In this document: positions 259 through 16,010 of the stretch, piece after piece | Layout of the letters: each line of letters begins with the position of its first letter | How positions within the stretch are numbered: position 1 is the stretch's first letter | From: a virus | Reading direction: 5' to 3' (one strand) | DNA: 28,247 nucleotides | IMG/VR virus record: IMGVR_UViG_3300038552_000058 | Location: 1 to 28,247 of that record | The notes under the pieces: model-generated | What the model was told of the DNA's origin: nothing | What the model saw: only the letters and a program-made list of their open reading frames with translations | Databases searched by the model: none | Made by a program: the position numbers and the translations under genes

Positions 259-657
259 ATGGGCGCTGACGCGCGGCGGCCATGTACGCGAGAAAGCAAT
301 CTCGATTGTCTGACTCACGATGGCGGCCTGACACACTGCGATCAAGGCGTGGCCGACGCCGTCGCCCAGGCGGTCGCCAACGTCCAACACGTCTGCACGA
401 AGTGCGGCTACATCGCGGTTACGCACTCGGTGACGACGGAGCAGATCGTGGCCAAGGCGGTGCGGGAGCGGGATGAGCGAGATGGTCCCCTTCTGTCCTG
501 TCCGTGGTGTCAGGCAGATCAGACAGGGAAAATCATTGAGGCTCAACTGAGCCACTTGATCGAATGCGGCGACCGTCAGCGAGCCCGGCAAGCCGAGGAG
601 ATCGCCCGCCTCAAGGAGCAGATCGCTCATTGGAAGCGTCTGCTGAAAGCGCCATGA
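259..657 (+). CDS. Small Cys-rich protein with C-terminal coiled coil
   Basis: 132 residues, ATG start preceded by an AAGGAG ribosome site about 8 bases upstream. Two CxxC pairs, CTKC (residues 46-49) and CPWC (81-84), flank the AVRERDE segment and could form a zinc ribbon; four further Cys lie at 9, 17, 27 and 103. The C-terminus is a charged helix, EEIARLKEQIAHWKRLL. The central part resembles the preceding truncated gene and the C-terminal helix resembles the next gene, so this looks like a hybrid of duplicated modules. The stop overlaps the next start (ATGA). Zinc binding is inferred from Cys spacing; function unknown. Confidence 0.65.
   Translation: MGADARRPCTRESNLDCLTHDGGLTHCDQGVADAVAQAVANVQHVCTKCGYIAVTHSVTTEQIVAKAVRERDERDGPLLSCPWCQADQTGKIIEAQLSHLIECGDRQRARQAEEIARLKEQIAHWKRLLKAP
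595..615 (+). repeat. Direct repeat in coiled-coil genes (also 741-761, partly 822-837)
   Basis: 21 identical bases at 595-615 and 741-761, encoding EEIARLK, with 16 of them again at 822-837. Together with the 18-base pair at 128-145 and 460-477 they show that the three left-end genes arose by duplication and shuffling of coiled-coil segments. Confidence 0.8.
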
Positions 658-962
658 TCGACGACCTCTTCTGCGAAGATCACCTGCTTCAGCACAGCCA
701 TCCGGGCGGCTGCGTAATCTGCCAACTCGGACGGCACGTTGAGGAGATCGCCCGCCTCAAGTTAGAGTTGGCCAAGACCGCAGACTTGCGCGAAGCCTGG
801 CTTGAGGCGCAGAAGAGTACCGAGATCGCCCGCCTCACCACCGCGCTGGCCCAGGCGCGGGCGGCACTAGAGCGTCTCGCAAACGCTTGCGGTTGGCATC
901 CTGATTGGGTTCGAGAGGCCCTCACGCCCCCGCCCGCCGAGGAGGGAGAGGAGAATGCGTAA
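654..962 (+). CDS. Small zinc-finger/coiled-coil protein
   Basis: 102 residues from ATG 654, chosen because it overlaps the preceding stop (ATGA), as at many junctions here; a longer in-frame extension to 564 would lie inside the upstream gene. The N-terminus has C7-x2-H10 and C20-x2-C23, a plausible single zinc site. The rest is a coiled coil with repeated EIARL segments. 21 bases at 741-761 are identical to 595-615 in the upstream gene, and 16 of them recur at 822-837. Function unknown. The internal repeats suggest expansion by slippage or unequal recombination. Confidence 0.65.
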   Translation: MIDDLFCEDHLLQHSHPGGCVICQLGRHVEEIARLKLELAKTADLREAWLEAQKSTEIARLTTALAQARAALERLANACGWHPDWVREALTPPPAEEGEENA

Positions 963-1176
963 ACAGGCGCTGACGCCCAAGACCGCGCGCACCTTCGCCG
1001 AAATCTGCAAGCTCAAGCGGGACAACGTGGACATGCCCGAGGGCTGGGCGATGCTTGATGAGGGCGGTGTCATCATCACCAACCAGAAGAGTGGCGAGCC
1101 GGTGACTGGGCGGGTGCATGTATCGCACCGAAGCCTCCAGAAGATCATCCGCTGGTACGAGACTGGGGTGGTCTAA
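955..1176 (+). CDS. Small hypothetical protein, convergent with the ATPase gene
   Basis: 73 residues, ATG at 955 overlapping the end of the preceding gene, with purine-rich GAGGAGGGAGAGGAG directly upstream as ribosome site. The protein has a basic N-terminal helix, a short beta-rich middle and an aromatic C-terminus (IIRWYETGVV). It may be a small regulator, but no family is recognised. Its TAA (1174-1176) overlaps the TAG of the opposing ATPase gene (1175-1173) in a shared CTAA, so the two transcripts must converge and overlap. Confidence 0.6.
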   Translation: MRKQALTPKTARTFAEICKLKRDNVDMPEGWAMLDEGGVIITNQKSGEPVTGRVHVSHRSLQKIIRWYETGVV

Positions 1177-2000
1177 CACACCTGAGTCGTCCCCCACACC
1201 TGAGGATTCGGACCCCCCTTCTTCATCGGAAGAACCGTGATCCGCTGGGGGCTCTCATCCGTGACCTCGGGCCACGAGACCATGATCCGCTCGTGTTCAC
1301 TCTCAGAGCGAGACTTGATGCCGGTCACGGTGGCTTGCCGTGGCGCGTGCTGGGGGACCTCTTGCTTCCCTACCGCAATCGCCGAGTCCACGCCCGCGAG
1401 GATGTCCGTGCTCCCCGAGGCCCGATGCCGCTCCTCTCGCACGTTCTCCGCGGGAGGCTTGTTCATGTGGTGGAGCACGATCACGGTCCGGTTCCCCCGG
1501 TCCCAGATCGGCTCGATGGAGCGCCAGAAGGCCGACACGTCCTGAGCCCGGTTCTCGTCCCCGAGCATGATCCGTCTAAACGAGTCAATGAAGATGACAT
1601 CGGCGGGGAAGTCCTTCAAGTGTTGTCTCAGGGTCATCACCCGTCCACGGTCGAGCCCGGCCCCGTCGAAGCTATGGGAGGCGATCAGGAGTTCCTCGGA
1701 CCCGTCCAGGCCGATCCCGAGCCCGAGCCGCTTCATCCGTCTCCGGGTCTCCTGCTCCGACATCTCCTCATCGAGGAAGAGCACTCGTCGCTTGTTTGGT
1801 ACTTGGAAGGCCCCCATCCAGGGCTTCCCCGCGGCCAGGGACAAGGCCATCGAGTGAGCGAGGTAGGACTTCCCCGCCCCGAACTCCCCGTAGATCATGG
1901 CCCGATCCCCTCGTGTGATCCACCCCTCAACCTCCCACTCTATCGGTGCTATCGGTTCCTCCATGATCCTCCCGATGGGGAGGAGATTCTTGAGAGCCAA
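1173..2000 (-). CDS. RepA-like RecA-fold ATPase (AAA_25 type, probable replication helicase)
   Basis: 275 residues. The Walker A motif GEFGAGKS lies at about residues 38-45, a segment RRVLFLDEEMSEQET follows, Walker B VIFID is at 135-139, TVIVLHHMNKPP is the sensor strand, and RASGSTDILAGVDSAI is typical of the RSF1010 RepA/AAA_25 group. These proteins are hexameric ATPases, often replicative helicases; the length matches single-domain RepA. The TTG start is chosen for the AGGGAGG site 7 bases upstream; ATG at residue 13 is the alternative. The 5' end overlaps the upstream small gene by 74 bases and the 3' end overlaps a plus-strand gene by 4. The family is clear; the helicase role is inferred, supported by the DNA polymerase in the same genome. 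Confidence 0.85.
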   Translation of the reverse strand: MALKNLLPIGRIMEEPIAPIEWEVEGWITRGDRAMIYGEFGAGKSYLAHSMALSLAAGKPWMGAFQVPNKRRVLFLDEEMSEQETRRRMKRLGLGIGLDGSEELLIASHSFDGAGLDRGRVMTLRQHLKDFPADVIFIDSFRRIMLGDENRAQDVSAFWRSIEPIWDRGNRTVIVLHHMNKPPAENVREERHRASGSTDILAGVDSAIAVGKQEVPQHAPRQATVTGIKSRSESEHERIMVSWPEVTDESPQRITVLPMKKGGPNPQVWGTTQVC

Positions 2001-2232
2001 AGTCGAGCCTCCCTTCCTTGACCTCGTTTACCGAACGGGCCAGACTCTGAGGTTCCGCATCCTCCCAATATTTCAAGGCTCGCAGCCCAAGGAGGACGAC
2101 TTGCTGCTGGCTCAGGTGGTGGCGGTCTCGGAAGTCTTGGAGGAATCGGTAGGCAGGTGTAGGAAGGGAAGGGATAACAAAATCAGACCAATAGACCATT
2201 TTCGTGCGCTGATGGCGGTTGACTTGGCTCAT
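1927..2232 (-). CDS. Small protein, possibly ribbon-helix-helix-like
   Basis: 101 residues. The start at 2232 is set by an ATGA overlap with the stop of the 47-residue gene upstream. The middle (IPSLPTPAYRFLQDFRDRHHLSQ, quoted in part: LPTPAYRFLQDFRD, then HLSQQQVVLLGLRALKYW) has a short strand and two helices, as in ribbon-helix-helix DNA-binding proteins. The C-terminus is disordered, rich in Ser/His/Asp, and overlaps the ATPase coding start, which is why it reads as low complexity. A regulator upstream of a RepA-like ATPase would be typical of plasmid and phage replication modules. The fold is inferred by eye only. Confidence 0.5.
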   Translation of the reverse strand: MSQVNRHQRTKMVYWSDFVIPSLPTPAYRFLQDFRDRHHLSQQQVVLLGLRALKYWEDAEPQSLARSVNEVKEGRLDFGSQESPPHREDHGGTDSTDRVGG

Positions 2233-2372
2233 GAGTGGGGTTCTCCCCAAATGTGCCGCGGACATGAGCACGGCTTCAGCACCCTTACCCAAGGAACCTG
2301 GACGTGCAAACTGATATTCCTGGTCACTCGAATGAGCCACTGACTGCGACCTTCCAGCTTGATGATCTTCAC
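2229..2372 (-). CDS. Hidden 47-residue small protein
   Basis: GTG start at 2372 with a perfect AGGAGG ribosome site 5 bases upstream, and TGA overlapping the ATG of the next gene (ATGA at 2232-2229). The sequence begins MKIIKLEGRSQWLIRVTRN and ends with a CSCPRH segment. This fits the translational-coupling style of the window. It has a beta-strand-like N-terminus and a possible metal-binding Cys-x-Cys-x2-His near the C-terminus. It is the first gene of the minus-strand unit after the TATAAT box at 2436-2431. Function unknown. Confidence 0.6.
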   Translation of the reverse strand: MKIIKLEGRSQWLIRVTRNISLHVQVPWVRVLKPCSCPRHIWGEPHS

Positions 2373-2391
2373 GGCAACCTCCTGGGGGATG

Positions 2392-2412
2392 CCGGGCCGA
2401 CTCTAGGCCCGG
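2392..2412 (-). promoter_or_regulatory. GC palindrome, possible operator or leader stem-loop
   Basis: Perfect inverted repeat CCGGGCC-(7)-GGCCCGG. It lies about 20 bases downstream of the minus-strand TATAAT box and just before the ribosome site of the 47-residue gene. It could be an operator for the ribbon-helix-helix candidate, or an mRNA stem-loop. No U-tract follows on either strand, so a standard terminator is unlikely. Confidence 0.5.
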
Positions 2413-2430
2413 ACTATACATCCTTGAGGG

Positions 2431-2436
2431 ATTATA
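2431..2436 (-). promoter_or_regulatory. Candidate -10 box (TATAAT) for the minus-strand control operon
   Basis: Reads TATAAT on the minus strand inside an AT-rich patch (2428-2441) that stands out from the GC-rich surroundings. It lies 59 bases upstream of the GTG start at 2372. No good -35 box sits 16-18 bases upstream, so it may need an activator or may not be a promoter. Confidence 0.35.
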
Positions 2437-2459
2437 TTACAGACATCCTGGAAACCCCC

Positions 2460-2756
2460 TCAGCCCCTCCCCCGTTCCTTGACAGGCGGCCTCTCCCTGA
2501 AGTTCCTCAGGATCGCCTTCACCGTCTCCCCCTGCCCGATCCGCTGGACCACCCCGAGGTCGAGCCCCTCCTTCAGCATGAGGTGTAGGAGCCTGAGCGC
2601 CACCACAACGATCTCTAGCTGGTCCGCCATCTCCTTGGGCGTCCCATCAGGCAAGGTCGCGCCTGGGGCCGGGCCTAGGGCGGCTCGTGCCTCCTGGAGG
2701 GCGGCGTAGTCCCCCTTTGGTAAGGGGGGTAGGTGGAAAGAAAGGGGTCTGGGCAT
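2460..2756 (-). CDS. Small hypothetical protein, first gene left of the divergent region
   Basis: 98 residues from ATG 2756. The ribosome site is weak and no better start is visible. The N-terminal 40 residues are Pro/Ala-rich and probably flexible. From about residue 43 (MADQLEIVVVALRLLHLML) the protein becomes a helical, hydrophobic domain ending in a basic tail. No family recognised. It lies 58 bases from the divergent plus-strand TTG start at 2814, so the two share an upstream region. The stop is followed by the AT-rich patch with the TATAAT box. Confidence 0.5.
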   Translation of the reverse strand: MPRPLSFHLPPLPKGDYAALQEARAALGPAPGATLPDGTPKEMADQLEIVVVALRLLHLMLKEGLDLGVVQRIGQGETVKAILRNFRERPPVKERGRG

Positions 2757-2788
2757 CTCACTCAGGGAACGCCGGGCTCCCTCCCCAC

Positions 2789-2796
2789 GTTCCTAG
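2789..2796 (+). repeat. GTTCCTAG intergenic element, copy 1
   Basis: First copy of an eight-base element that also occurs, exactly or with one change, at 5495-5502, 6787-6794, 7818-7825 and 10865-10872. Each copy lies in or starts a real gap of the plus-strand operon and is followed by an AGGAGG-type ribosome site (AGGAGG or AGGAGGT). The copies at 6787 and 7818 extend to 13 identical bases including the preceding C. Confidence 0.55.
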
Positions 2797-2813
2797 CACA
2801 GGAGGACCCACCG

Positions 2814-3224
2814 TTGAAGATATACATATCCGCCAGTTTCGTGGCTCAGAAACGCCTCCGACCCATTCGTGACGCTCTCTGGGCCATGGGGCACGTGGTC
2901 ACCTCCTCCTGGCTGGACGAGACCGAGATGCCCGCGGGGATGTCCCGGGAAGCCTTCATGCGAAAGCTGGGGGTCAAGGACGTGGCGGAAATCCACGACG
3001 CGGACCTCCTCATCAACGATCTGGCCGAGCCCTCCACCTCGGGGGGCCGGGACATCGAACTCGGGGTGGCCATCGGTCGCCATCAGCGGTGCCAAGTCTG
3101 GATCGTAGGGACCCCTCGCTCCCCCTTCCACTTCCTCGCAGATCGGGAGTTCTCGAACTGGGATGAGGCTCTCACGGCAGCCAAGGAACTGATCCACTCG
3201 CAAGCCAAGGAGGCCAAGGAATGA
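2814..3224 (+). CDS. Nucleoside 2-deoxyribosyltransferase-like protein
   Basis: 136 residues from TTG 2814, chosen for the AGGAGG 8 bases upstream and because the family begins at the KIYISASF strand. The order fits the NDT-like/DUF4406 Rossmann-type fold: KIYISASF (2-9), GHVVTSSWL (26-34), DVAEIHDADLLIND (56-69), GGRDIELGVAIG (about 77-88) with the conserved acidic residue of the active-site loop, then QVWIVG. Family members move or cleave the N-glycosidic bond of deoxynucleosides. Adjacent MazG and DUF5664 genes point to management of the nucleotide pool. It opens the long plus-strand operon; the next gene overlaps by ATGA. Fold assignment is fairly firm, exact substrate unknown. Confidence 0.7.
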   Translation: MKIYISASFVAQKRLRPIRDALWAMGHVVTSSWLDETEMPAGMSREAFMRKLGVKDVAEIHDADLLINDLAEPSTSGGRDIELGVAIGRHQRCQVWIVGTPRSPFHFLADREFSNWDEALTAAKELIHSQAKEAKE

Positions 3225-3541
3225 GAATGGCTCACCTCTTCACCAAGCCCGTCCACACCCCCGAGTTCGCCACCCACCACGAGATTCACCTTCGGGAGGA
3301 GGAGGCGATGGCTCTCACCCGGGAACTCATCGAACTACTCGGGTTCCGCACGAACGACGACCTTCCCTATCTCACCGGGAGGTTCCCCACGCTCACCAAG
3401 ATCATGGACCTCTTGGGTGACCGCAACAGCCGCGGTCCCAAGCGCGAGGTCGAGCCGATTACCCTCTACTCCTACCCGACCAAGCGGCAGCGGGAGGAGG
3501 CACAAGACCGGAAGGCTTTCTTCAAGGAGACCTCCTACTGA
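3221..3541 (+). CDS. Hypothetical protein in the nucleotide-metabolism operon
   Basis: 106 residues; ATG 3221 overlaps the preceding stop, with GGAGG about 10 bases upstream. It is largely hydrophilic: an N-terminal His-rich stretch (HTPEFATHHEIHLREEEA), a helical middle, then a short C-terminal region rich in Arg/Lys/Glu. No Cys and no membrane segment. Its end overlaps the MazG start by one base (TGATG), so it is probably co-translated with MazG. No family recognised. Confidence 0.6.
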   Translation: MRMAHLFTKPVHTPEFATHHEIHLREEEAMALTRELIELLGFRTNDDLPYLTGRFPTLTKIMDLLGDRNSRGPKREVEPITLYSYPTKRQREEAQDRKAFFKETSY

Positions 3542-3897
3542 TGCGGACCGAGGACTACGAGAAGTTCGTGGAGTCGGTGGATATGTACACCCAGGATCGT
3601 GGGGACGCCCCCTACGCCCTCGGGCTCGCCGGAGAGGCGGGCGAGGTGGCCGACATGGTGAAGAAGGCCCTCCGCGAGAAGGGCTTCGCCAAGCCCATCG
3701 TGGGGGACCGGGAACACCAGTTCATCCTCGAACTCGGGGACGTGCTCTGGTATCTCACCCGGCTGGCGGCCCGGCACGGTCACACGCTCTCTCAGGTGAT
3801 GGACCTCAACGTGGACAAGCTGGTGACCCGCTATCAGCGGACCCCTGAAGGGAGGGCACTCCTGGCGGGGAAGCTGATCGAGGAGATGACCTCGTGA
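3541..3897 (+). CDS. mazG-like: MazG-like nucleotide pyrophosphohydrolase
   Basis: 118 residues, about the length of a single MazG domain. The signature ExxE...ExxD is present: E32-A-G-E35 in LAGEAGEVADMVKKAL, and E64-L-G-D67 in LELGDVLWYL; these acidic residues bind Mg in the family. MazG proteins hydrolyse NTPs or dNTPs to NMP plus pyrophosphate. Phage copies are thought to adjust nucleotide pools or alarmones. It is coupled at both ends (TGATG upstream, GTGA downstream) to a DUF5664-like gene. Family call firm, substrate unknown. Confidence 0.85.
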   Translation: MRTEDYEKFVESVDMYTQDRGDAPYALGLAGEAGEVADMVKKALREKGFAKPIVGDREHQFILELGDVLWYLTRLAARHGHTLSQVMDLNVDKLVTRYQRTPEGRALLAGKLIEEMTS

Positions 3898-4262
3898 TTG
3901 ACAAGTTCAAGTTCACCATCAAGGACTCTGGGGAGCGCGAGCAGTTCTCCACCGGCATGAATCGGGACGTGGAGACGGGGAAGATCGACTACACCCTGAT
4001 CTACGACGGTCCCATGCTGAAACGCTGGGCCGAGCATCTGACCAAGGGGGCTATCAAGTACAAGCCCCGAAACTGGCTTCTGGCAGCCACCCAGGAAGAA
4101 CTGGACCGCTACCGGCGTTCCTTGGGTAGGCACTACCATCAGTACATGAACGGGGAAGTAGACGAGGACCATGCGGCGGCCATCTTCTTCAACGTGAACG
4201 GCATCGAGTACGTGAAAGAGAGGCTCGCCAATGTCCACAGTCCCGTGCCCCCACTGCAATAA
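3894..4262 (+). CDS. DUF5664-type dATP/dGTP diphosphohydrolase-like protein (MazZ-related)
   Basis: 122 residues; GTG start 8 bases after GAGGAG, overlapping the MazG stop (GTGA). Motifs match the phage dATP/dGTP diphosphohydrolase N-terminal family (PF18909, formerly DUF5664): FSTGMNRDVETGKIDY, LKRWAEHLTKGAIKY followed by PRNW, then GRHYHQYMNGEVDEDHAAA. A related all-alpha protein in 2-aminoadenine phages (MazZ) hydrolyses dGTP and dATP. No PurZ or DatZ is visible here, so a Z-genome cannot be claimed. The C-terminal ten residues overlap the start of the next zinc-knuckle gene. Confidence 0.7.
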   Translation: MIDKFKFTIKDSGEREQFSTGMNRDVETGKIDYTLIYDGPMLKRWAEHLTKGAIKYKPRNWLLAATQEELDRYRRSLGRHYHQYMNGEVDEDHAAAIFFNVNGIEYVKERLANVHSPVPPLQ

Positions 4263-4374
4263 GGAGAAGGATTCCACTGGCGGCTTCCTCTCGTCCCGAG
4301 TGTTCTTCGTCGAGGGGAAGCGTCAGGTCGAGGTGTACTGCTGGAAATGTGGTCACTCGGAGCCCGTGCGGTGA
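4231..4374 (+). CDS. Zinc-ribbon microprotein (47 residues)
   Basis: ATG 4231 lies within the end of the upstream gene, in another frame. The protein has CPHC (6-9) and CWKC (39-42) separated by a charged beta-hairpin-like region (FLSSRVFFVEGKRQVEVY), a typical four-Cys zinc ribbon. Its TGA overlaps the GTG of the next gene (GTGA). Zinc binding is inferred. Such small ribbons often bind nucleic acid or act as adaptors to host proteins. Function unknown. Confidence 0.7.
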   Translation: MSTVPCPHCNKEKDSTGGFLSSRVFFVEGKRQVEVYCWKCGHSEPVR

Positions 4375-4523
4375 AGAAGATTTTCCGGTGTATCTGCTGC
4401 AATTATCCAACTCTTTACCTTCGGGCAGACGGAGAGCGGTGTGCGTGGTGTCGAGACCATCATGCTTGGGGCGAGACGTGCGCGACTGAGTGGACAAGAC
4501 TGACTGGGGAGCCCATGCGATGA
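4371..4523 (+). CDS. Second Cys-rich microprotein (50 residues)
   Basis: GTG 4371 overlaps the preceding TGA and the gene's own TGA overlaps the next ATG (ATGA at 4520). The protein begins MKKIFRCICCNYPTLYL and has a second pair, CAWC, at 24-27, followed by a Trp-rich C-terminus (HHAWGETCATEW). Four Cys in two pairs suggest one zinc site. It follows another zinc-ribbon gene directly, so the pair may act together. No family recognised. Confidence 0.6.
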   Translation: MKKIFRCICCNYPTLYLRADGERCAWCRDHHAWGETCATEWTRLTGEPMR

Positions 4524-4660
4524 ACAACCCCTTCATGTTTCTGCTGGCTGTGATAGAACTCGGGGCGAGCGGCTGGGCCATCTGGCACGGGAACGTGAGC
4601 CTGGGGGTCATGTACTTCTCGTGGGCCGTCTCCAGCGTCGTCCTCGGGAGGATGGGATGA
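4520..4660 (+). CDS. Small membrane protein (46 residues)
   Basis: ATG 4520 overlaps the previous stop, and its TGA overlaps the ATG of the nuclease gene (ATGA). Almost the whole chain is hydrophobic: FMFLLAVIELGASGWAIW, a short polar turn, then LGVMYFSWAVSSVVLGRM, i.e. two short predicted membrane helices. It sits among replication genes, not in the lysis region, so a holin role is not favoured. It may be an inner-membrane phage factor. Function unknown. Confidence 0.55.
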   Translation: MNNPFMFLLAVIELGASGWAIWHGNVSLGVMYFSWAVSSVVLGRMG

Positions 4661-5502
4661 GCGACGAACCCCGCATCTACGCCCCGACTCGGATGAAGAA
4701 CTGGGTCCGCTGCCCGCTCTACGCCTCCCTGTTGAAACAGGTCGAACCCGTGAAGGACTGGACGCCCAACCTCCTCCTGGGGCGGGCTATGGACGCCGGG
4801 CTGACCTTCTACTACGTGCAAACAGCCAACCTGGGCTCAGGACCCTCCTACCCGGGGGACCGTGAAGCTGAGGGGCTCCGGCTGGCCCTGGAGACCCTCC
4901 GCGAGGGCTACGAGGACAACGAACTCTGGCCCATCGAGGGCCTGGAGAAGATCGTCCAGCGTGCCTACGCCGCGGCGCTCGGGGAAGCCGGGGTTCTCAG
5001 CGTGGGACCCATGATCGCGGTAGATGAGTCGCTGGGAGTTGGACGCCCTGACATCATCCAGAAGTCCCGCGACGGCTCTCACCTCATCGTGACCGACCGG
5101 AAATTCACTCTCAAGCTGGAGCAGCATTACCTCGCCAAGACCCTGGCCGAGTACGAGGTCGATGACCAGTTCTGGCACTATGCCTGGGAGGCCGAGCAAC
5201 GGTGGGGCATCCCAGTCAAGTGGCTCCGGGTCCACCTTCTCGTCGGGACGCCGAAGGCCCGCTCGATTCTCCATCCCTGGCAAGTGAAGGACGGGACCAT
5301 CGCCTTCTGGCTCAAGGGGGCCGAGCAGAACTGGAAAGACATGCAGGAGGAGGAAGAGGGGAAGCGAGAGATCGTCCCCAAGTTTGCCAACTGCATGGGC
5401 AAGTACGGGCGATGCCCCTTCCATGGGTACTGCCACGAGCCTCAGCAGCGTGAACTTTTCTATCGCCCCGTGGAACCTCGAACCCTCCCATCCGATTCCT
5501 AG
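4657..5502 (+). CDS. Cas4/RecB-like PD-(D/E)XK nuclease with probable Fe-S cluster
   Basis: 281 residues from ATG 4657, after GGGAGG and an ATGA overlap. Four Cys are placed as in Cas4/AddB-type nucleases: C19 in RCPLY near the N-terminus, and C246, C253 and C259 in a C-terminal CMGKYGRCPFHGYC cluster, likely holding a 4Fe-4S centre. The nuclease core is visible: GRPDII (129-134), D147-R-K149 in IVTDRKF, and a QxxxY motif (Q171-Y175). Such enzymes are 5'-3' ssDNA exonucleases that feed recombination. A Sak4-like ATPase and a candidate ssDNA-binding protein lie just downstream. The gene ends in the second TTCCTAG element. Confidence 0.85.
   Translation: MSDEPRIYAPTRMKNWVRCPLYASLLKQVEPVKDWTPNLLLGRAMDAGLTFYYVQTANLGSGPSYPGDREAEGLRLALETLREGYEDNELWPIEGLEKIVQRAYAAALGEAGVLSVGPMIAVDESLGVGRPDIIQKSRDGSHLIVTDRKFTLKLEQHYLAKTLAEYEVDDQFWHYAWEAEQRWGIPVKWLRVHLLVGTPKARSILHPWQVKDGTIAFWLKGAEQNWKDMQEEEEGKREIVPKFANCMGKYGRCPFHGYCHEPQQRELFYRPVEPRTLPSDS
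5495..5502 (+). repeat. ATTCCTAG intergenic element, copy 2
   Basis: One-base variant of the GTTCCTAG element. Its TAG is the stop codon of the nuclease gene, and AGGAGG follows within a few bases, upstream of the ATG at 5521. Confidence 0.45.
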
Positions 5503-5520
5503 AGTAGGAGGAAAGCGATC

Positions 5521-5910
5521 ATGTGCATGTTGACCCACGACCGGGCGCTCCAAACCAAGAGGACGGTTTCCAAGGACAAGCCCATCCTGGCCTTCAAGCA
5601 ATTTCACGTCAAGGTGGTGGAGGGGAAGGTGCGTTACACTCCCATCTCGTCGAACAACTATCCTGAGGGGGGATGGGTACGAAACATCCCCTACACAGCG
5701 CACTCGGTCCCGACCACCCGGAATACCTACGTCGGGTTCCACGCGATCAAGCGTCCGACGCTCAGGATGTTCCGTACTGAGCTCTGCGTCTGTCTCCCCG
5801 TGAAGTTGTGGGGGAGGATCGTGGAGCATCGGGGGACCACGCACAGGAGCTACCCGTATCGTCCGTTTTGCCCCGCGGGCTACCGGGCTCAGTTCATGGA
5901 GATTCTCTGA
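5521..5910 (+). CDS. Conserved-looking phage protein of unknown function
   Basis: 129 residues, ATG 10 bases after AGGAGG. It starts with MCML and has a beta-rich body: FHVKVVEGKVRYTPIS, GWVRNIPYTAHSV, VGFHAIKR, VCLPVKLWGRIVEHRG and a C-terminal GYRAQFMEI. The arrangement (MCxL start, GFHA, then VKLWG and GYRA near the end) resembles a family of phage hypothetical proteins seen in many tailed phages, but I cannot name it. Its TGA overlaps the start of the Sak4-like gene (TGATG). A role in recombination is suggested only by position. Confidence 0.65.
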   Translation: MCMLTHDRALQTKRTVSKDKPILAFKQFHVKVVEGKVRYTPISSNNYPEGGWVRNIPYTAHSVPTTRNTYVGFHAIKRPTLRMFRTELCVCLPVKLWGRIVEHRGTTHRSYPYRPFCPAGYRAQFMEIL

Positions 5911-6794: not shown

Positions 6795-6831
6795 TGTGTA
6801 AACGAAGTACCACCACCAACAGGAGGAAGCA

Positions 6832-9738: not shown

Positions 9739-10865
9739 TGCCCAAGCCCAAGCGTTCTGCCCGCTCCGTAGATTCGGACGTGCTCCGGCAGTTGAAGGAC
9801 CTGGGAGCCGAGTCCGTCTTGCTCGATCTCCGTCTGGAGTACATGGAGCTAGAGGGCATCGCCCGCTACCTCCGCAAGCTGGTGGGGCGCGAGCGAGTCC
9901 ATCCGCACATGCTCCCGACCCAAGCCTCTGGACGCTGGAGCACCACGAGTCCCCCGCTCGTCAACTTTCCGGCCCACGCGGAGGACGACTGTGACCGCTG
10001 CCAAGACCTCAAGGCTCGGGGAGAGCCGCTCCCTCACTGGTGCCCGCGAGCGGTGCGGGAGGTGATCCTGCCTGACGAGGGATGGTACTTCGTCCACTAT
10101 GACTTGAATGCTATCGAGGGCCGATTCGGTGCCGCCGATGCCCACGATGAGGAGGAGCTAGATGCCTACCGGAAGAACGAAGATGTCCACACAGTTCTCG
10201 GAGCCGCCCCTATGTTTGGGATGCCTGCTCCACCGATCCGCACGAAGGGGCTCCACACGGCGAGCGATCCCGCTTCAGTGGCATGGCGTGAGGCTTGGAT
10301 TCCCCCATGGAGCGGATCGGAAGATCGTCGCCGACATCTTGCTAAGACTCTCAAGTACGCTACCCTCTACGGGAAGGACCACCGGGGGGCCGCGACGGCG
10401 AAGGGGGTAGAGAAGCTGAGGCTCACGAAGGCTGAGGTCGAGCGGTTCGCCAAGGTGTATCTGAAGGTCCGGTCCGTCCTCACCGCCCACAAGGCTCGAC
10501 GCTTCGAGGAATACGCCCGGACCAACGTGAGCTACACGTTTCGGGGGCGGCGTCGTCGGCTCTTCGGGGATGCCTGGACCCGGGCCAAGGAAGGGTGGTC
10601 CCATCGGTTGCAGGGAGCGGTCCCTGACATCATGAACGACTACATCATCCAGGTGGCTAACGCCTTCCCCGAGGGCTACATCGTCTTGAACTCCCACGAC
10701 GGGCTCACCTGGGCCATGCCGGGGACCCGGGAGCAGGCCCTCCAGACCGTGCAAACGATGAAGAGGATTGTGGAGCGAGACTGGGATTACGAGGGGGTTT
10801 CCCTCCCCGTAGCGGCCGACTGGGAGATAATCTACCCGGACGGAACGAAAGAGAAGGTCAAGTAG
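9738..10865 (+). CDS. Family-A DNA polymerase, C-terminal polymerase part
   Basis: 375 residues starting at TGATG with no good ribosome site, so translation probably depends on the upstream gene. Polymerase motifs follow in order: TQASGRWSTTSPPLVNFP (61-78), motif A VHYDLNAIEGRF with D122, motif B R199-x3-K203-x7-Y211-G, and motif C NSHDGLTW with H320-D321. Motif C has Gly where Glu is usual. Tyr207 occupies the E. coli position 762. Between NFPAH and motif A there is an insertion with C85-x2-C88, H100 and C102. All catalytic Asp/Lys/Arg residues are present, so it should be active when joined to, or paired with, the first part. Confidence 0.9.
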   Translation: MPKPKRSARSVDSDVLRQLKDLGAESVLLDLRLEYMELEGIARYLRKLVGRERVHPHMLPTQASGRWSTTSPPLVNFPAHAEDDCDRCQDLKARGEPLPHWCPRAVREVILPDEGWYFVHYDLNAIEGRFGAADAHDEEELDAYRKNEDVHTVLGAAPMFGMPAPPIRTKGLHTASDPASVAWREAWIPPWSGSEDRRRHLAKTLKYATLYGKDHRGAATAKGVEKLRLTKAEVERFAKVYLKVRSVLTAHKARRFEEYARTNVSYTFRGRRRRLFGDAWTRAKEGWSHRLQGAVPDIMNDYIIQVANAFPEGYIVLNSHDGLTWAMPGTREQALQTVQTMKRIVERDWDYEGVSLPVAADWEIIYPDGTKEKVK

Positions 10866-10872
10866 TTCCTAA
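10865..10872 (+). repeat. GTTCCTAA intergenic element, copy 5 (one change)
   Basis: Variant of GTTCCTAG starting on the last base of the polymerase stop, followed by ACAGGAGGT and the ATG at 10892. Confidence 0.45.
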
Positions 10873-10891
10873 GACAGGAGGTAACACACCC

Positions 10892-11185
10892 ATGAAGAGT
10901 TTCGTGATGGCCTTGGTGATGGTGCTCGGTCTGGCAGGAGGGGGGTTCGCCGCGGACCTCGTGAGCGGGGTCTGCGAGCCCGAGATGGCTGGTCCCCGAG
11001 CGGGCCAGTGCCGGTCCTTCGGCTGGCAGGAGCGGGAGCGTATGACCGCTTCATCCTACGACTACTCCCAGTTCCAGGGGGCGGGTGGGGATTCGGCGGC
11101 CGGTGCCGATGCGTCGGCGGCTGATGCCGCGGCGGCCGAGGCTGCTGCTGATGCGGCGGCTGCGGCTGCGGATTCCGACCAGTAG
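10892..11185 (+). CDS. Exported protein with Ala/Asp low-complexity tail
   Basis: 97 residues; ATG after AGGAGGT at good spacing. The N-terminus MKSFVMALVMVLGLAGGGFA is a clear signal peptide with likely cleavage after GGFA. The mature part has two Cys (in SGVCEPEMAG and AGQCRSFGW), possibly a disulfide in the periplasm, then a polar linker. The C-terminal third is made almost only of Ala with spaced Asp, Glu and Ser, encoded by GCG/GCC/GCT runs prone to slippage. Possible roles include superinfection exclusion or lysis control. No family recognised. Confidence 0.6.
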   Translation: MKSFVMALVMVLGLAGGGFAADLVSGVCEPEMAGPRAGQCRSFGWQERERMTASSYDYSQFQGAGGDSAAGADASAADAAAAEAAADAAAAAADSDQ

Positions 11186-11195
11186 GACCATTCTC

Positions 11196-11567
11196 GTGAT
11201 CTCATCGGGGGACATCCGACAACTGGCAGGATTGCTAGAAGGGGAAGGGACGTTTCGCCTTGTCAAACGTGCCGGGCGACCACGCCTTCCCATGATTGCA
11301 GTCAACATGACAGATGAGGATGTCATCCGGTGGGCCGCGAGGCTGCTAGGTGGGAGAGTTAGTTTGTGCAAGAAGAAGCGACTTCCCCACCACAAACAGC
11401 AATATCTGACTTCCGTATCTGGTTCCAAAGCTGTAGGGTGGATGATGACGTTGTACATGTTTCTGGGAACGCGCCGTCGCGCGAGGATTCGAGAGGTCCT
11501 GGACTACTGGAAACATTCGGGCCGTCCGGGTCCTGGACAACTTTCAAACATCTGGAGCCGGGTATGA
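11196..11567 (+). CDS. Free-standing LAGLIDADG-type homing endonuclease
   Basis: 123 residues from GTG 11196 (TAGGA upstream). It has a single LAGLIDADG motif, LAGLLEGEGTF, followed by the family pattern PMIAVNMTDEDVIRWAARLLGG, quoted in part: VNMTDEDVIRWAARLLGG, then GSKAVGWMMTLYMFLG and a basic C-terminal helix RARIREVLDYWK. One motif per chain implies a homodimer. Base composition is less GC-rich than neighbours and codons such as TTA, AGA and CTA are more frequent, a sign of recent arrival. It lies just downstream of the polymerase genes, a common target of such elements. No intron is evident. Confidence 0.8.
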   Translation: MISSGDIRQLAGLLEGEGTFRLVKRAGRPRLPMIAVNMTDEDVIRWAARLLGGRVSLCKKKRLPHHKQQYLTSVSGSKAVGWMMTLYMFLGTRRRARIREVLDYWKHSGRPGPGQLSNIWSRV

Positions 11568-11600
11568 AGAATCCCTGGTTTTCAGTGTTAGGGGTACATC

Positions 11601-11951
11601 GTGGGCAGAGCAAGTCGGCTTCTCAGGGTGTTGGTTCACCCCAGCCTGGAGAGTCTCGAATCCATCCAGGCACTCCGCGACAAGGGACACGAGGTCGTGA
11701 CTGGCGCGACGTGTCGTACTTCCCAGTTACTCCCCGGGGAGAGCGATACTTCCCTGTGGGAGTACGATCTGATTCTGGGACCGAACTGCTGGCGGATGGA
11801 CCCGACGCTGGCGAAGCACGTGGACCTCGCAGTGAGGAGTTCGAGGCTGGAGAAGTACGGGTCCCCCTCGAAAACGGGTGGAAGGTCAAGCCCCAGCAAA
11901 CGAAGTTCCCCAAAGGGAGAGAGCGATGAAAGTCCTACGCCTTCTTCGTAG
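11601..11951 (+). CDS. Hypothetical protein with Rossmann-like N-terminal half
   Basis: 116 residues; GTG 11601 is the only usable start because an in-frame TAG lies shortly upstream. The first 90 residues look like a small alpha/beta domain: LLRVLVHPSLESLESIQAL, RDKGHEVVTG, LWEYDLILGPNCWRM, ending in LAVRSSRLEKYG. The pattern of a strand, a helix, GHEV and YDLILG is typical of Rossmann-type folds. The last 25 residues are Ser/Pro/Lys low complexity and overlap the next gene by 26 bases. The ORF in another frame covering the same DNA lacks these features. Function unknown. Confidence 0.6.
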   Translation: MGRASRLLRVLVHPSLESLESIQALRDKGHEVVTGATCRTSQLLPGESDTSLWEYDLILGPNCWRMDPTLAKHVDLAVRSSRLEKYGSPSKTGGRSSPSKRSSPKGESDESPTPSS

Positions 11952-12234
11952 CCTGACGTTCCTGGATTGGATGGTGGTCGCGGCGTTCGTGGTGATCTTG
12001 CTCGCCCTCGCGACCGGGAGTGCCTTCGCGCTGGGACCTCACTCTCACTGGGTCCTGCTCATCGAGCAGGAGGATGGGTCTGGTCAGGCTGGGACCTTCA
12101 ACGATGAAGCAGCCTGCAAGACCGCGGCAGCCTATGTGGATGCCGAACTCTCTCAGATCACACTGAGATCGGAGTGCATCGAGATTCCGCTCGGCGTCAA
12201 GATCGAGCGCGAACTGGAAGGGGAGAAGTCATGA
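11926..12234 (+). CDS. Membrane-anchored protein with periplasmic domain
   Basis: 102 residues from ATG 11926, after GGGAGAGAG. The N-terminus is basic (MKVLRLLRSLTF), followed by a membrane helix WMVVAAFVVILLALATGSAF. The remainder, residues 35-102, starts WVLLIEQEDGSGQAGTF and has two Cys (in AACKTAA and SECIEI) likely bonded outside the cytoplasm. Such layouts occur in phage lysis accessory and exclusion proteins. The position just before a small M15 peptidase suggests a lysis cassette, but no spanin motif is clear. The stop overlaps the next ATG. Confidence 0.6.
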   Translation: MKVLRLLRSLTFLDWMVVAAFVVILLALATGSAFALGPHSHWVLLIEQEDGSGQAGTFNDEAACKTAAAYVDAELSQITLRSECIEIPLGVKIERELEGEKS

Positions 12235-12449
12235 GCCTACACACACTGTTCGAGAAGATGGGCTGGAGCGCGACGAAGAAGAAGAAGAGGAAGGGCACGC
12301 TGGTCCGTCTCCAGGACGGCAAGCGTCACCGTGTTGACGAGAACGGGAACATCATCGGCGTGTACGCCAAGCGCCGCCACGACCGGGAACTTCGTAGGAT
12401 CGCGAAGGGTGCCCCTCAGGTGAACACGGAGCGGGACCCCGCATCATGA
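12231..12449 (+). CDS. Small basic protein
   Basis: 72 residues from ATG 12231, overlapping the previous stop (ATGA) and itself overlapped by the next gene (ATGA). A Lys/Arg-rich segment (ATKKKKRKGTLVRLQDG) leads to a short beta-turn-beta region (KRHRVDENGNIIGVYAKRR), then a charged tail. The high positive charge suggests binding to nucleic acid. It stands between a membrane protein and a predicted endolysin. No family recognised. Confidence 0.6.
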   Translation: MSLHTLFEKMGWSATKKKKRKGTLVRLQDGKRHRVDENGNIIGVYAKRRHDRELRRIAKGAPQVNTERDPAS

Positions 12450-12742
12450 CCCTCGGTGAGTTCGCGGAAGCGGCAGCCCAATACTGCCTGATGATGGATG
12501 GCTCCGTCACCTCATGGGGCCGCACCACCAAGCGGAACACGGCTGTCGGAGGGGCGAAAATGTCTGGGCATCGCTTCTTCCGCGGGCTCGACGTGGTGTA
12601 CGATGACCCCACGATGTTGCAAGCTGACCACCCCACCTACCCGGACGGTGTACGTATCATCATCGCCCGTCGTCTCGGGCTCAAGTTGATCCCCGAGCGA
12701 GACCACGATCATCTTCAGCCACTCGACTGGGAGGCCGGTTAA
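12446..12742 (+). CDS. Minimal M15-type peptidase, probable endolysin
   Basis: 98 residues. It carries the M15 zinc-peptidase signature: S40-G-H42-x6-D49 (SGHRFFRGLD), and E84-R-D-H87 followed by H89 (PERDHDHLQP). H42, D49 and H87 would bind zinc and E84 would be the catalytic base. M15 enzymes cut D-Ala or L-Ala/D-Glu links in peptidoglycan stems. The chain is shorter than most M15_3 endolysins and has no wall-binding domain or signal peptide. Overlaps on both sides and neighbouring membrane proteins suggest a lysis cassette. Alternatively it is a virion-associated wall hydrolase. Confidence 0.75.
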   Translation: MTLGEFAEAAAQYCLMMDGSVTSWGRTTKRNTAVGGAKMSGHRFFRGLDVVYDDPTMLQADHPTYPDGVRIIIARRLGLKLIPERDHDHLQPLDWEAG

Positions 12743-12744
12743 CC

Positions 12745-13638
12745 ATGCGGACCGTCCGTATCTCACTTCCGACTCCGACTTCTGAAGTCTCCCTCGCCCC
12801 GCTGGGAGACATGCAGTGGGCCGGGGACCGAAACGACCTCGCCTATGACCATCTGGAGGAGCACATTGCCTACGTGCTCGAACAGCCCGGTCCACTGCTC
12901 GTGGGGATGGGGGACTACATCGACTTCGCCTCCCCGTCTAACCGGGAGGCTCTCCGAGAAGCCCGGCTCTACGACACAGCCCGCAAGGTGATCGCTGACG
13001 CGACCACGACTCTCGTGGACGATCTCTTCACCCGACTCCTGGCTCCGACCTACGGGAAGTGGGCCGGGCTCCTCAAGGGGCATCACCACCACCCGGCCCG
13101 GACCGGCACTCGGTTGAACGCAGACGGGATCGAGCAGGACATCTACGAGGATTCCGATGTCTACCTCTCCCGGAAGCTGGGAGCCCGCTACCTGGACGAA
13201 CTCGCCATCATCAAGCTGCGCTGGCCGAACGCGGCGCGGGGTGAGACCCATGGTGTAAACGTCCTCGCCTTTCACGGGAGCGGGAACTCGGTATTCCCGT
13301 GGGGTCCTCTCAACAAGCTGTACCGCATCTCTCCCAACTTCAACGCGGACATCCTCCTCATGGGGCACCAGACGAAGAAGGCCGTGGGGGAGTACGACTG
13401 GATCGACCCCGTAGACGACGACGTGCATGGAGATCGGCTGGATCACCGGACCCGACACCTCGTCGGGACGGGAGGCTGGGGCCGGGGGTACGTCGAGGGG
13501 CGGGAAACCTACGTCTCTCGGGACGCACTCAACCCGGTGGCCCTTGGGCAGCCGATCATCCACATTCGCCCGCGGTATCGGGTCACGACCTCGACAGGAG
13601 CCCACGTGTGGGAGCCCCGGATCACCGTCGAGAGCTAG
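12745..13638 (+). CDS. Calcineurin-like metallophosphoesterase
   Basis: 297 residues. Metal-binding blocks appear in the order of the family: LGDMQW (GDxQ, 20-25), GMGDYIDF (54-61), GLLKGHHHHP (GNHD-like, 108-117), VLAFHGSG (173-180) and ILLMGHQTKK (203-212). The dimetal site would be formed by these Asp, His and Gln residues. Phage members hydrolyse phosphodiesters or phosphomonoesters; substrates are mostly unknown and may include nucleotides or DNA ends. The start is preceded by GGAGG at 10 bases. A zinc-knuckle gene begins inside its 3' end. Confidence 0.85.
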   Translation: MRTVRISLPTPTSEVSLAPLGDMQWAGDRNDLAYDHLEEHIAYVLEQPGPLLVGMGDYIDFASPSNREALREARLYDTARKVIADATTTLVDDLFTRLLAPTYGKWAGLLKGHHHHPARTGTRLNADGIEQDIYEDSDVYLSRKLGARYLDELAIIKLRWPNAARGETHGVNVLAFHGSGNSVFPWGPLNKLYRISPNFNADILLMGHQTKKAVGEYDWIDPVDDDVHGDRLDHRTRHLVGTGGWGRGYVEGRETYVSRDALNPVALGQPIIHIRPRYRVTTSTGAHVWEPRITVES

Positions 13639-13832
13639 AGGAGAAGCATCGAAGGGCTCGGAGGAGACTACGCCGCCTGTTGGGCTTGTGCGTGGATTGC
13701 TTGGAGCCTACTGGCGGTCCGACCCGCTGCCCGACGCACGCGGAGCAGCATCGAGTGACGGAGCAGCGAGCGAGGGATCGTGAAGTACAGGCTCGGGGCT
13801 ACAAGTACGTGAGAATCCCCATAGGAGAGTGA
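13608..13832 (+). CDS. Zinc-finger microprotein with basic helix
   Basis: 74 residues, GTG 13608 with AGGAG about 8 bases upstream, overlapping the phosphoesterase end by 31 bases in another frame. A basic helix (HRRARRRLRRLLGL) is followed by C28-x2-C31 and C41-x2-H44, a likely zinc knuckle, then a charged helix and a short beta end (YKYVRIPIG). The fold resembles small nucleic-acid-binding proteins, and an HNH-like reading is not supported because no catalytic His pair is present. Function unknown. Confidence 0.6.
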   Translation: MGAPDHRRELEEKHRRARRRLRRLLGLCVDCLEPTGGPTRCPTHAEQHRVTEQRARDREVQARGYKYVRIPIGE

Positions 13833-13835
13833 CAC

Positions 13836-13919
13836 ATGGAACCAACCCTACCCGGCACTTTCTATATCCTGGGCTCCCTGTGTTTCATCGTGGGGACTGT
13901 CCTGGGATGGATGAGGTAA
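13836..13919 (+). CDS. 27-residue single-span membrane peptide
   Basis: ATG 13836 lies 8 bases after AGGAGAG; TAA at 13917. The sequence is one hydrophobic helix: FYILGSLCFIVGTVLGWM with a short polar head and an Arg at the end. Size, spacing and position between the phosphoesterase/zinc-knuckle genes and a lipoprotein suit a small lysis or regulatory peptide. Because it is so short, coding status rests on the ribosome site and hydrophobic run alone. Confidence 0.45.
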   Translation: MEPTLPGTFYILGSLCFIVGTVLGWMR

Positions 13920-13922
13920 GCT

Positions 13923-14279
13923 ATGGCCCATGAAAGTCAGGCACGTGCTCGTGTTTGGTCTTTTGTTCTGGGCTTTGGACTGGTCCTTCTCGCGACCGCC
14001 TGCTCGTGGTTCGGGCTCCCTGAGCGAGAGGACCCCGAAGCCCTCGCTTGGAAAGTGGCCACCATACAACAGCGGGTCCTACTCCCTCGGGCTCAGGCTC
14101 CAGTGTCCCAAATGTGGAAGATGGTTCCGATGAGCGGAGGCCCGGCCGTTTACACGGCTTGTGTCGAGGGGGACCGGCTCTTCGCCATGAACAAGCAAGC
14201 GTGGCGGGGGACGGATGGACTCTGGCCGGACGTGGCCCTCGCGGTGAGCCCTGGAGCGTGCCGTGCCCGCCGTCACTAG
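13923..14279 (+). CDS. Probable lipoprotein (alternative frame possible)
   Basis: 118 residues; ATG follows GAGGT by about 7 bases. The N-terminus VWSFVLGFGLVLLATAC has a lipobox (LATA-C27), so the mature chain would be lipid-anchored. Later segments (GGPAVYTACVEGDRLFAM) read like a folded domain. However, the first 20 codons have poor third-position GC, and another frame (13930-14133, 67 residues, N-terminal hydrophobic run and QCPKCGRW near the end) fits better there; its stop overlaps an in-frame ATG at 14130 (ATGA). So this may really be two genes. See findings. Confidence 0.5.
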   Translation: MAHESQARARVWSFVLGFGLVLLATACSWFGLPEREDPEALAWKVATIQQRVLLPRAQAPVSQMWKMVPMSGGPAVYTACVEGDRLFAMNKQAWRGTDGLWPDVALAVSPGACRARRH

Positions 14280-14484
14280 TTCATCCTGGCTACACTGTCG
14301 CTGGTGCCAGGGAGGACTCTCTATCTACTTTCCACCCCCGCCTGCCGGATGGGCCTACGAGATGGACATGGGATATGTTCGACAGTCTCCCGGTTTCCTC
14401 GTCTGCAAATGCTGTGACCGAACCCACTGGCGTTGGGAGCCTCCCTGCCCGCATCGTGCGCTCCCTCCTCGCGTGGTAAGATAG
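14263..14484 (+). CDS. Zinc-ribbon microprotein
   Basis: 73 residues from GTG 14263 (GGAG six bases upstream), overlapping the preceding gene by 17 bases. CRWC (12-15) and CKCC (48-51) with an additional Cys near the end (PPCPHR) give a probable four-Cys zinc site. Between them is a Pro/aromatic-rich stretch (SIYFPPPPAGWAYEMDMGY). It is one of several small Cys-pair proteins in this part of the genome. It precedes the adaptor-like gene. Function unknown. Confidence 0.55.
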   Translation: MPAVTSSSWLHCRWCQGGLSIYFPPPPAGWAYEMDMGYVRQSPGFLVCKCCDRTHWRWEPPCPHRALPPRVVR

Positions 14485-14488
14485 GCCC

Positions 14489-15181
14489 ATGGTCAACAGA
14501 CTCCAGCGGGATCAGATCGTGATAGCGGCTCTGGATGCGGTGGACTCCCCCTCGCTCGACGTGAAGGAGCGGCCCGGAGGGACCCTCACCGGCACTCTGG
14601 GAACGGGCTTCCTCCAGCGGGCTCTGGACTACTTCTACAAACAGTTCCCCGTGAAGGGAGTCCTCACCTCAGCCGCCATCACCCTGGACTCGGAGTACGT
14701 GAACCTCCCCGCGGACTACGTGCAGGACTTCTTGAACGGGATCGTGCTCGCGAACGACGAGGGGCGGCTGACTCGGCGCTCGATGTCCTATCTCCTCTCT
14801 CGCCCTCGCAACACGGAGGGGAAGCCCGTCCAGTATGCCGTGGTGGACGACACCCGGATCATGCTGCGGAACATCCCGGACAAGTCCTACTCGGCCACGC
14901 TCTACTACTACAAGCTACCCGCGGCTCTGGGTTCGACGGACATCCCTCCCTTCCCGGACGATCAGGTGCTCGTGGACTTCGTGGAGATCAGGTACAAGGA
15001 GTGGCTCCAGATGATCCCCAAGGGGTCTGGGATGGAGTACGCCCGCCAGCAGGTTGCGGCGCTCCAGAAGTCCGGTGTGGGCGTGGAGCCCGAGCCCGAC
15101 CAGATCGAACTCGACCGGCAGTATTACGGGGACCAGGGCCAGGGCGACCTGAATGACTGGATGGGGAAAACCTCGCTATGA
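14489..15181 (+). CDS. Adaptor-like virion protein
   Basis: 230 residues. The order of features resembles phage head-tail adaptor proteins of the DUF6682 type: N-terminal helices (RDQIVIAALDAV, FLQRALDYFYKQFP), strand DSEYVNLPADYVQDFLNGI, a short loop domain with RSMSYLL, a strand block ATLYYYKLPAALG, and then DDQVLVDFVEIRYKEWLQM. The C-terminus is acidic and rich in Gln/Asp. If right, it would join portal and tail in the virion. It is odd that it lies on the plus strand, away from the other virion genes. The family assignment is by pattern only. Confidence 0.45.
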   Translation: MVNRLQRDQIVIAALDAVDSPSLDVKERPGGTLTGTLGTGFLQRALDYFYKQFPVKGVLTSAAITLDSEYVNLPADYVQDFLNGIVLANDEGRLTRRSMSYLLSRPRNTEGKPVQYAVVDDTRIMLRNIPDKSYSATLYYYKLPAALGSTDIPPFPDDQVLVDFVEIRYKEWLQMIPKGSGMEYARQQVAALQKSGVGVEPEPDQIELDRQYYGDQGQGDLNDWMGKTSL

Positions 15182-15450
15182 GGGACCACGGGCGCTTCAC
15201 CTCGATGCAGGGCCACACGCTCAAGGAGCGCATGGATAAGCGAGTGGGGGAGGACACCGAGTCCTTCACGGCTCCCATGCCTGAGCGGGCGACGGAGGCT
15301 GAGATCAAGCACCCTCCGGCCATCGACTTGAACGAGTGGAAAGAGGAAGAGAACATCGTGGACAACCCAGCCATGAATCCCCAGCGCGAGTTCGAGCAGA
15401 TGGAGCGGGAGGACGACCAGTGGATGCGGAGACCTCTCGGTGATACTTGA
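15178..15450 (+). CDS. Small acidic hydrophilic protein
   Basis: 90 residues; ATG overlaps the previous stop (ATGA). Composition is Glu/Asp/Arg-rich with no hydrophobic core: HGRFTSMQGHTLKERMDKR, WKEEENIVDNPAMN, EFEQMEREDDQWMRR. It is probably mostly disordered or helical. Its tie to the adaptor-like gene suggests a small virion or assembly partner. No family recognised. Confidence 0.55.
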   Translation: MRDHGRFTSMQGHTLKERMDKRVGEDTESFTAPMPERATEAEIKHPPAIDLNEWKEEENIVDNPAMNPQREFEQMEREDDQWMRRPLGDT

Positions 15451-15703
15451 GCGATGCGAAACCCACACCCGCGTTGCGTGCCCTATCTGTGGCCCTCGAA
15501 CTGGGAGTACACCTGCATCCACGGGCTCACCCACGACTACCCCGCGGGGATTATTGGTACGATTCGCCATCTGGCCGGACATCCACTGCCCGAAATGCAA
15601 GGCGATCCAGACTCACCGGGCTCTTGGGATGGAAGTGGCGGGGCAACGGTACGGGAGAGCGCAGTGCATGATGTGCGGTCTAGTACGGAGACTAGGAGCC
15701 TGA
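15440..15703 (+). CDS. Zinc-ribbon protein with three Cys pairs
   Basis: 87 residues from GTG 15440, 8 bases after GGAG. It contains RCETHTRVACPICG, HCPKC and QCMMCG, i.e. three Cys pairs plus a Cys/His pair, consistent with one or two zinc sites. The middle (residues 20-38) is Ser/Thr/Pro-rich with poor codon bias, and the overlapping frame 15454-15708 has better third-position GC there. A shorter form from TTG near 15550 is possible. The end of the protein (RALGMEVAGQRYGRAQ) looks well folded. Confidence is moderate for this frame. Confidence 0.5.
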   Translation: MILERCETHTRVACPICGPRTGSTPASTGSPTTTPRGLLVRFAIWPDIHCPKCKAIQTHRALGMEVAGQRYGRAQCMMCGLVRRLGA

Positions 15704-15704
15704 C

Positions 15705-16010
15705 ATGAAAGACGTACCCCACACTCACGTTTGCCCGTCCTGTGCTTGCGCGTGGGATTGCTTGAACCCGTACTGCACGGACTACGAGGGCCAGTGGTGC
15801 AAGAACTTCTGCCGGACCTGCGTGAATCCCCCGCCTGCTCTGGCATCGGTCCGAGCCGTGGAGGCTGCGGGCCACGAGATTCACCACGCGGCTCATCTCC
15901 TGGAGCAGGCCGGAGAGAAGTCCCTGGCTGCCCAGGCTCAGTGGCTCCGTGACGCTCTCCTTGGGCGGGTTCAAGACCTCGCCAAGGGGATCGAGCGGAA
16001 GGACGTTTAA
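15705..16010 (+). CDS. Cys-rich N-terminus plus helical protein
   Basis: 101 residues from ATG 15705, one base after the previous stop. The first 40 residues hold eight Cys: HVCPSCACAWDC, then NPYC, QWCKNFCRTC. They can bind two metals. Residues 45-101 are helical and Ala-rich: ASVRAVEAAGHEIHHAAHLL, EQAGEKSLAAQAQWLRDALL. The layout resembles other small zinc proteins in the window fused to a helix. Function unknown. Confidence 0.6.
   Translation: MKDVPHTHVCPSCACAWDCLNPYCTDYEGQWCKNFCRTCVNPPPALASVRAVEAAGHEIHHAAHLLEQAGEKSLAAQAQWLRDALLGRVQDLAKGIERKDV

Follow-up and report, generated by a model that had tools for sequence, protein, structure and literature searches.

A dense set of small cysteine-pair proteins in an uncultured phage, and a candidate viral family that includes one of them

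We analysed eight small open reading frames (ORFs), named here CYS1 to CYS8, that encode closely spaced pairs of cysteines on the plus strand of a viral DNA of 28,247 bases. This DNA, which we call the window, is the whole of the IMG/VR record IMGVR_UViG_3300038552_000058. The best explanation that we can offer, and one that we hold to be probable, is that the eight are mostly real genes for separate small metal-knuckle proteins, and that CYS8 belongs to a wider family of viral proteins. The eight ORFs, with the energies of Shine-Dalgarno pairing in kcal/mol, are the following.

259-657, plus strand: CYS1, 132 amino acids, with CTKC and CPWC and a C-terminal coil; pairing -8.5
654-962, plus strand: CYS2, 102 amino acids, with CEDH and CVIC and a coil; no Shine-Dalgarno site (-0.2)
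4231-4374, plus strand: CYS3, 47 amino acids, zinc-ribbon-like, with CPHC and CWKC; Zn_ribbon_13 match of 21 bits
4371-4523, plus strand: CYS4, 50 amino acids, with CICC and CAWC
13608-13832, plus strand: CYS5, 74 amino acids, basic, with CVDC and CPTH; pairing -6.6
14263-14484, plus strand: CYS6, 73 amino acids, with CRWC and CKCC
15440-15703, plus strand: CYS7, 87 amino acids, with CPIC, CPKC and CMMC; pairing -6.6
15705-16010, plus strand: CYS8, 101 amino acids, with a HxHxCPxC-x5-C-x4-C-...-CxxC head and a helical tail; member of what we call the HxH-C6 family

All eight frames are open where the original prediction had placed them, but two or more CxxC pairs (x, any residue) occur in only six; CYS2 and CYS5 each combine one CxxC with one CxxH. 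Two weaker cases had also been proposed. That at 2229-2372 falls away, as it is open on the minus strand only, has stops on the plus strand, and contains CSC and no CxxC; the frame at 13930 retains a single CPKC, at its end. As a separate observation, the first three ORFs of the window (1-960, plus strand) share repeated coil-coding segments, for instance GAGATCGCCCGCCTCA, which is present in three copies.

Density of cysteine-pair ORFs in the window and its relatives

For the density count we took ORFs of 40-150 amino acids in which CxxC occurs two or more times. Seven such ORFs are present in the window, six on the plus strand and one on the minus strand, the latter an endonuclease VII-like gene (25792-26106; PF02945, E 3e-19) absent from the original prediction. 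Thirty dinucleotide shuffles gave a mean of 0.33 and a maximum of 2. Counted on single strands in spans of 15,752 bases, the window reaches 6 against 0-3 in 34 controls, which comprise eight named phage records and 26 of 80 MazG-bearing viral loci of at least 15 kb. Three of the eight named controls (MW202477, MW202742 and MW202637) are distant relatives of the window by capsid or polymerase.

Relatives were collected by two routes. A capsid alignment led to 62 loci in viral contigs; 38 of their records were searched, and 10 of these carry the polymerase. The second route, through the gene at 14489-15181, led to 16 loci, with six further records searched and the N-terminal half of the polymerase found in five. 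Searches with single sequences for relatives of the 14489-15181 gene and of the polymerase were unsuccessful. Twelve polymerase-bearing relatives were compared (G007, G010, G013, G017, G022, G026, G028, G039, G041, G042, G043 and G044); three more were omitted, G006 and G016 because their scores equal those of G007 and G017, and G023 because its match is much like that of G022.

On the polymerase strand, the maximum per span is 7 in G013, 6 in G041, 5 in G026 and 4 in G042, followed by 3 in G007, 2 each in G010, G017 and G039, and 1 each in G022, G028, G043 and G044. For the lower-GC relatives these counts are upper bounds, since some of the ORFs counted there look like chance cysteine-rich frames. 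With 4-7 per equal span in four of the 12 relatives, the density recurs in part of this group of uncultured phages. A rank test of the relatives against all 34 controls gives p 0.0006, the MazG loci among these being shorter and lower in GC. The claim that few phage windows hold so many therefore stands against the controls, where the maximum is 3, but not within the window's own group. The unusually high number of small cysteine-pair ORFs is real, though the first observation was somewhat overstated.

CYS8 and the HxH-C6 family

By its sequence, CYS8 appears to fall into a family of small viral proteins that can be recognised but has not so far been described. Our first search applied an expression for its cysteine spacing to 2.6 Mb of loci, duplicates included, and returned five distinct ORFs. 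Besides CYS8 itself, G013 contributed two and G028 one, and the fifth, in L115, resembles a chance match. CYS8 and the G013 and G028 ORFs all have HxH before the first cysteine, which the expression did not demand; H.H.C..C (dots standing for any residue) occurs in just six ORF segments of the loci collected by then, four of which are these same ORFs. Written as a DNA pattern, the motif matches 67 stretches in viral contigs, against 9 for the reversed pattern, which has equal composition. An in-frame tail CxxC follows within 2-18 residues in 50 of the 67 stretches, though it was not searched for, and lies at exactly 7 residues in 26.

The 67 stretches include 39 distinct complete ORFs. Alignment A6 has 35 rows, made up of 32 of these 39, CYS8 itself, and a single ORF from each of G013 and G028; L238, L241, L244, L247, L260, L265 and L297 were dropped as long, atypical or near-duplicate, and row L275 is identical in sequence to the second G013 ORF. 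F, Y or W stands two residues before the third cysteine in 24 of the 35 rows, which are not all independent, against a background of 7%. A profile built without the row from the window finds CYS8 at E 7.4e-4 among 59,198 segments. The same profile gives a truncated fragment (E 0.11), which proves to be a further HxHxCPxC ORF in G026 once reading continues over the border between two pieces. With CYS8-type ORFs in G013, G026 and G028, the family is present in three of the 12 relatives. CYS8 itself has HxHxCPxC-x5-C-x4-C; its tail CxxC is CRTC, 11 residues on, with a single cysteine at 7.

Scanned against PHROGs, Pfam and NCBIfam, none of the 35 members has a match better than E 1e-3, and the best match of the family in a profile scan of the PDB is at E 0.33. 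We found no publication that describes the motif in its title or the opening of its abstract. With the tail fixed at 7, a stricter form of the pattern has five matches in 84,980 bacterial and archaeal genomes, every one of these being metagenome-assembled (Verrucomicrobia, Acidobacteria, Acidobacteriaceae, Bacteroidetes and Rokuibacteriota). Four look like members by translation; the Bacteroidetes match, in a frame that overlaps a larger ORF, looks like a chance one and scores E 5 with the profile. When viral contigs and bacterial genomes were searched directly at the peptide level for a protein closely related to CYS8, only pattern matches came up, none of them confirmed, and a phmmer match of CYS8 to L134 (E 4e-4) was rejected, the L134 ORF being without the cysteine pattern and the alignment low-scoring.

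In other viruses, family members are found in at least two settings. In the first, they accompany two clusters of same-strand ORFs (6 and 5 loci) that, by eye, we take to be an SNF2-type helicase and a nuclease; in the second, in L261, L281 and L294, they lie beside large ORFs that by eye are presumably head genes. In G013, no listed plus-strand ORF stands between one of the members and the convergent gene of the 14489 type, and in the window CYS8 is the penultimate ORF ahead of the convergent virion genes. We advance only tentatively the idea that the module HxHxCPxC-x5-C-x4-C-xn-CxxC marks a family of virus-enriched microproteins, each probably binding two metals, that serve a single conserved purpose in numerous environmental phages with no other relationship. 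They would act during the early or recombination phase and may target a host factor.

Conservation of position

In a tblastn search at 1e-3 of the loci examined at that stage, none of the eight has a relative; the neighbouring genes at 14489-15181, 4657-5502 and 5808-6794 and both polymerase halves do have matches. When CYS1, CYS3, CYS5, CYS7 and CYS8 were compared by tblastn with a phage collection, the sole match, at E 0.05, linked CYS3 with an Acinetobacter phage. In G028, a CxxC-CxxC ORF lies between homologues of 3894-4262 and 4657-5502, the same place as that of CYS3 and CYS4. In G017, the homologue of 3894-4262 (PF18909, E 8e-11) has a C-terminal cysteine pair of its own, and in G013, G026 and G041 small cysteine-pair ORFs sit between the polymerase halves. 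Comparable positions are thus filled by different cysteine-pair ORFs in other members of the group, and gain and loss are probably quick. In the window, 3894-4262 (plus strand) encodes a dATP/dGTP diphosphohydrolase N-terminal domain (PF18909, E 4e-12), and CYS3 comes next.

Weighing the explanations

Most of the eight appear to be genes, CYS4-CYS7 being uncertain. Shine-Dalgarno pairing of -5.8 kcal/mol or better precedes seven of the eight, against 26% of 823 random ATG/GTG codons. The junctions are tight: CYS1 shares 4 bases with CYS2, as does CYS3 with CYS4, a gap of 1 base separates CYS7 from CYS8, and the overlap with the preceding gene is 32 bases for CYS3, 31 for CYS5, 17 for CYS6 and 11 for CYS7. 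Synonymous codon usage, judged by a model for which 24 of the window's larger genes served as the training set, supports CYS3 and CYS8, and weakly CYS1 and CYS2.

Several results weigh against eight real metal-binding proteins with CYS8 in a wider family. The codon model cannot separate CYS4-CYS7 from wrong frames. CYS8 is at the weak end of its family, at 21.5 bits, and its tail CKNFCRTC departs from the usual one. A rank test of the 12 relatives against the eight named phages gives p 0.06. Finally, a study of Haloferax volcanii reports zinc binding for 9 of 14 purified proteins that had been predicted to be zinc microproteins, and none for the other 5 (PMC11241148).

The alternative that survives best is that several of the ORFs, above all CYS4-CYS7, are chance cysteine-rich open frames, and that the true number is nearer four. 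Their codon usage and the lack of relatives speak for it, as does a rival frame (15454-15708) that overlaps CYS7, although its Shine-Dalgarno pairing is -3.0 against -6.6 for CYS7. The codon test, however, has little power, because the endonuclease VII gene, which is certain by homology, fails it too; and neither the shuffles, with so few such ORFs, nor the ribosome-binding sites and close junctions fit chance frames. We regard this alternative as unlikely, though worth keeping in mind.

Far less probable is that the eight are diverged paralogous adaptors for host takeover, amplified within the phage as one zinc ribbon is in Bacillus phage G, of which PMC7824862 gives about 35 copies. The set is dense and all co-directional, and CYS1 and CYS2 have repeated coil segments in common. 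When each of the eight was compared by unfiltered phmmer with six-frame ORFs from the window and its relatives, however, no significant match of one to another emerged; the sole pair listed is CYS1 with CYS2 (E 0.65-0.7), within the repeated-coil stretch. Cysteine spacings and lengths differ as well, and CYS8 groups with outside ORFs and not with the other seven. The original prediction had suggested a family of adaptors and, in it, the best candidate for an undescribed system. As far as sequence tells, the proteins are unrelated, and given that they neither match one another nor have tblastn relatives in the group at 1e-3, both 'family' and 'system' are unsupported for the set; what survives is the density, the position in line with the replication-side genes, and the CYS8 family. 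A defence system was also considered and rejected, the sole match to PADLOC profiles being CYS7 at E 0.031; the remaining seven have no match there up to E 0.1.

Similarly improbable is that one or more of the eight is a divergent Mu Com (an mRNA binder) or TraR/DksA (an RNA polymerase binder). Both are precedents for small phage regulators, and the lambda TraR homologue Orf73 binds RNA polymerase (PMC11323111), but the Pfam matches of the eight, taken up to E 1, include neither family.

Predicted structure and proposed roles

The AF2 (AlphaFold2) model of CYS8, made from four rows, has a mean predicted local distance difference test score (pLDDT) of 77. Helices at residues 44-99 are confident, and the knuckle part is less certain, with block means of 64-75. 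A Foldseek search of the model against the PDB returned nothing below E 2, mostly helical proteins. A single-sequence AF2 model of CYS7 was set aside for its mean pLDDT of 39.

What the sequences show are the frames, their motifs, the density, the absence of similarity among the eight, and the CYS8 family; binding of zinc, expression early in infection and a role as adaptors are inferences. If the eight are separate metal-knuckle proteins, each would probably fold around one zinc, with two in CYS8 and perhaps two in CYS7, and each would probably serve as a small adaptor that binds nucleic acid or a protein of the phage or its host. They would be produced alongside the replication genes, from frames that overlap and are probably coupled in translation, and expression of this replication-side half would be early, judging by its gene content and orientation. 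The eight would form no single family or machine, and such genes would be gained and lost fast. CYS8 would most likely be an accessory binder made with the replication or recombination genes, its metal-stabilised head used for binding and its modelled helical tail for contact with a partner or for pairing. Since most family members are without the tail, the head should carry the common function; among the shorter members is that of L286, with 47 residues.

A striking density of cysteine pairs can thus arise from many unrelated microproteins and not from one system. CYS8 in turn provides a motif by which a small viral family absent from Pfam, PHROGs and NCBIfam can be searched for, so that the role of that family becomes testable.

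Genome setting

Replication-type genes occupy the plus strand from 259 to 16,145, and virion genes lie on the minus strand from 16,142 onward. Other features of the window are these.

1173-2000, minus strand: helicase-like gene
8296-9738 and 9738-10865, plus strand: polymerase in two ORFs, both PHROG 17
12745-13638, plus strand: DNA repair exonuclease-like gene
26631-27965, minus strand: major head protein
among the minus-strand virion genes: tail collar-type protein

No tRNA was found in the window, and bases 1-16,100 have no near DNA match among 50,697 phage records. The polymerase is split in two ORFs both in the window and in the relatives examined, and its first half (8296-9738) has an N-terminal cysteine-containing stretch that, by eye, is like an iron-sulfur uracil-DNA glycosylase. 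The plus-strand ORF at 11085-11567 contains the stretch LAGLLEGEGTF, by eye that of a single-motif LAGLIDADG-type endonuclease, with no NCBIfam match. At 13836-14279 (plus strand), a membrane-like peptide of 27 codons precedes a protein whose start, LLATACSW, resembles a lipobox; read by eye, the pair are perhaps lysis genes. The virion-type gene at 14489-15181 (plus strand) shares its strand with the polymerase in the window and in G010, and with the capsid gene in the remaining relatives of the comparison, a difference that suggests an inverted segment. The endonuclease VII-like gene overlaps the adjoining virion ORFs and has unusual codon usage.

Comparison with known systems

CYS3 resembles the Pfam family Zn_ribbon_13 and the NCBIfam family YnfU in its paired CxxC ribbon, at scores below the curated cut-offs (21 of 23 bits and 17.6 of 36 bits, respectively). 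Mu Com, a zinc finger mRNA binder (PMC6483171), is likewise a small phage protein of zinc type, zinc being a prediction for the proteins studied here; unlike it, none of the eight matches the Com profile. Bacillus phage G also has many zinc-ribbon-type proteins in one phage, but these are copies of one ribbon, whereas the eight are mutually dissimilar. PMC11241148 describes 49 C(P)XCG zinc-finger microproteins of under 70 amino acids in Haloferax volcanii, and states that AF2 could not separate zinc binders from non-binders. The Haloferax set differs from ours in that it belongs to an archaeal chromosome and in its motif, since only CYS7 among the eight has two C(P)XCG motifs; both are cases of many small paired-CxxC proteins in one genome, mostly without known function. 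The CYS8 family, for its part, would be an undescribed family of a known kind, that of viral zinc microproteins.

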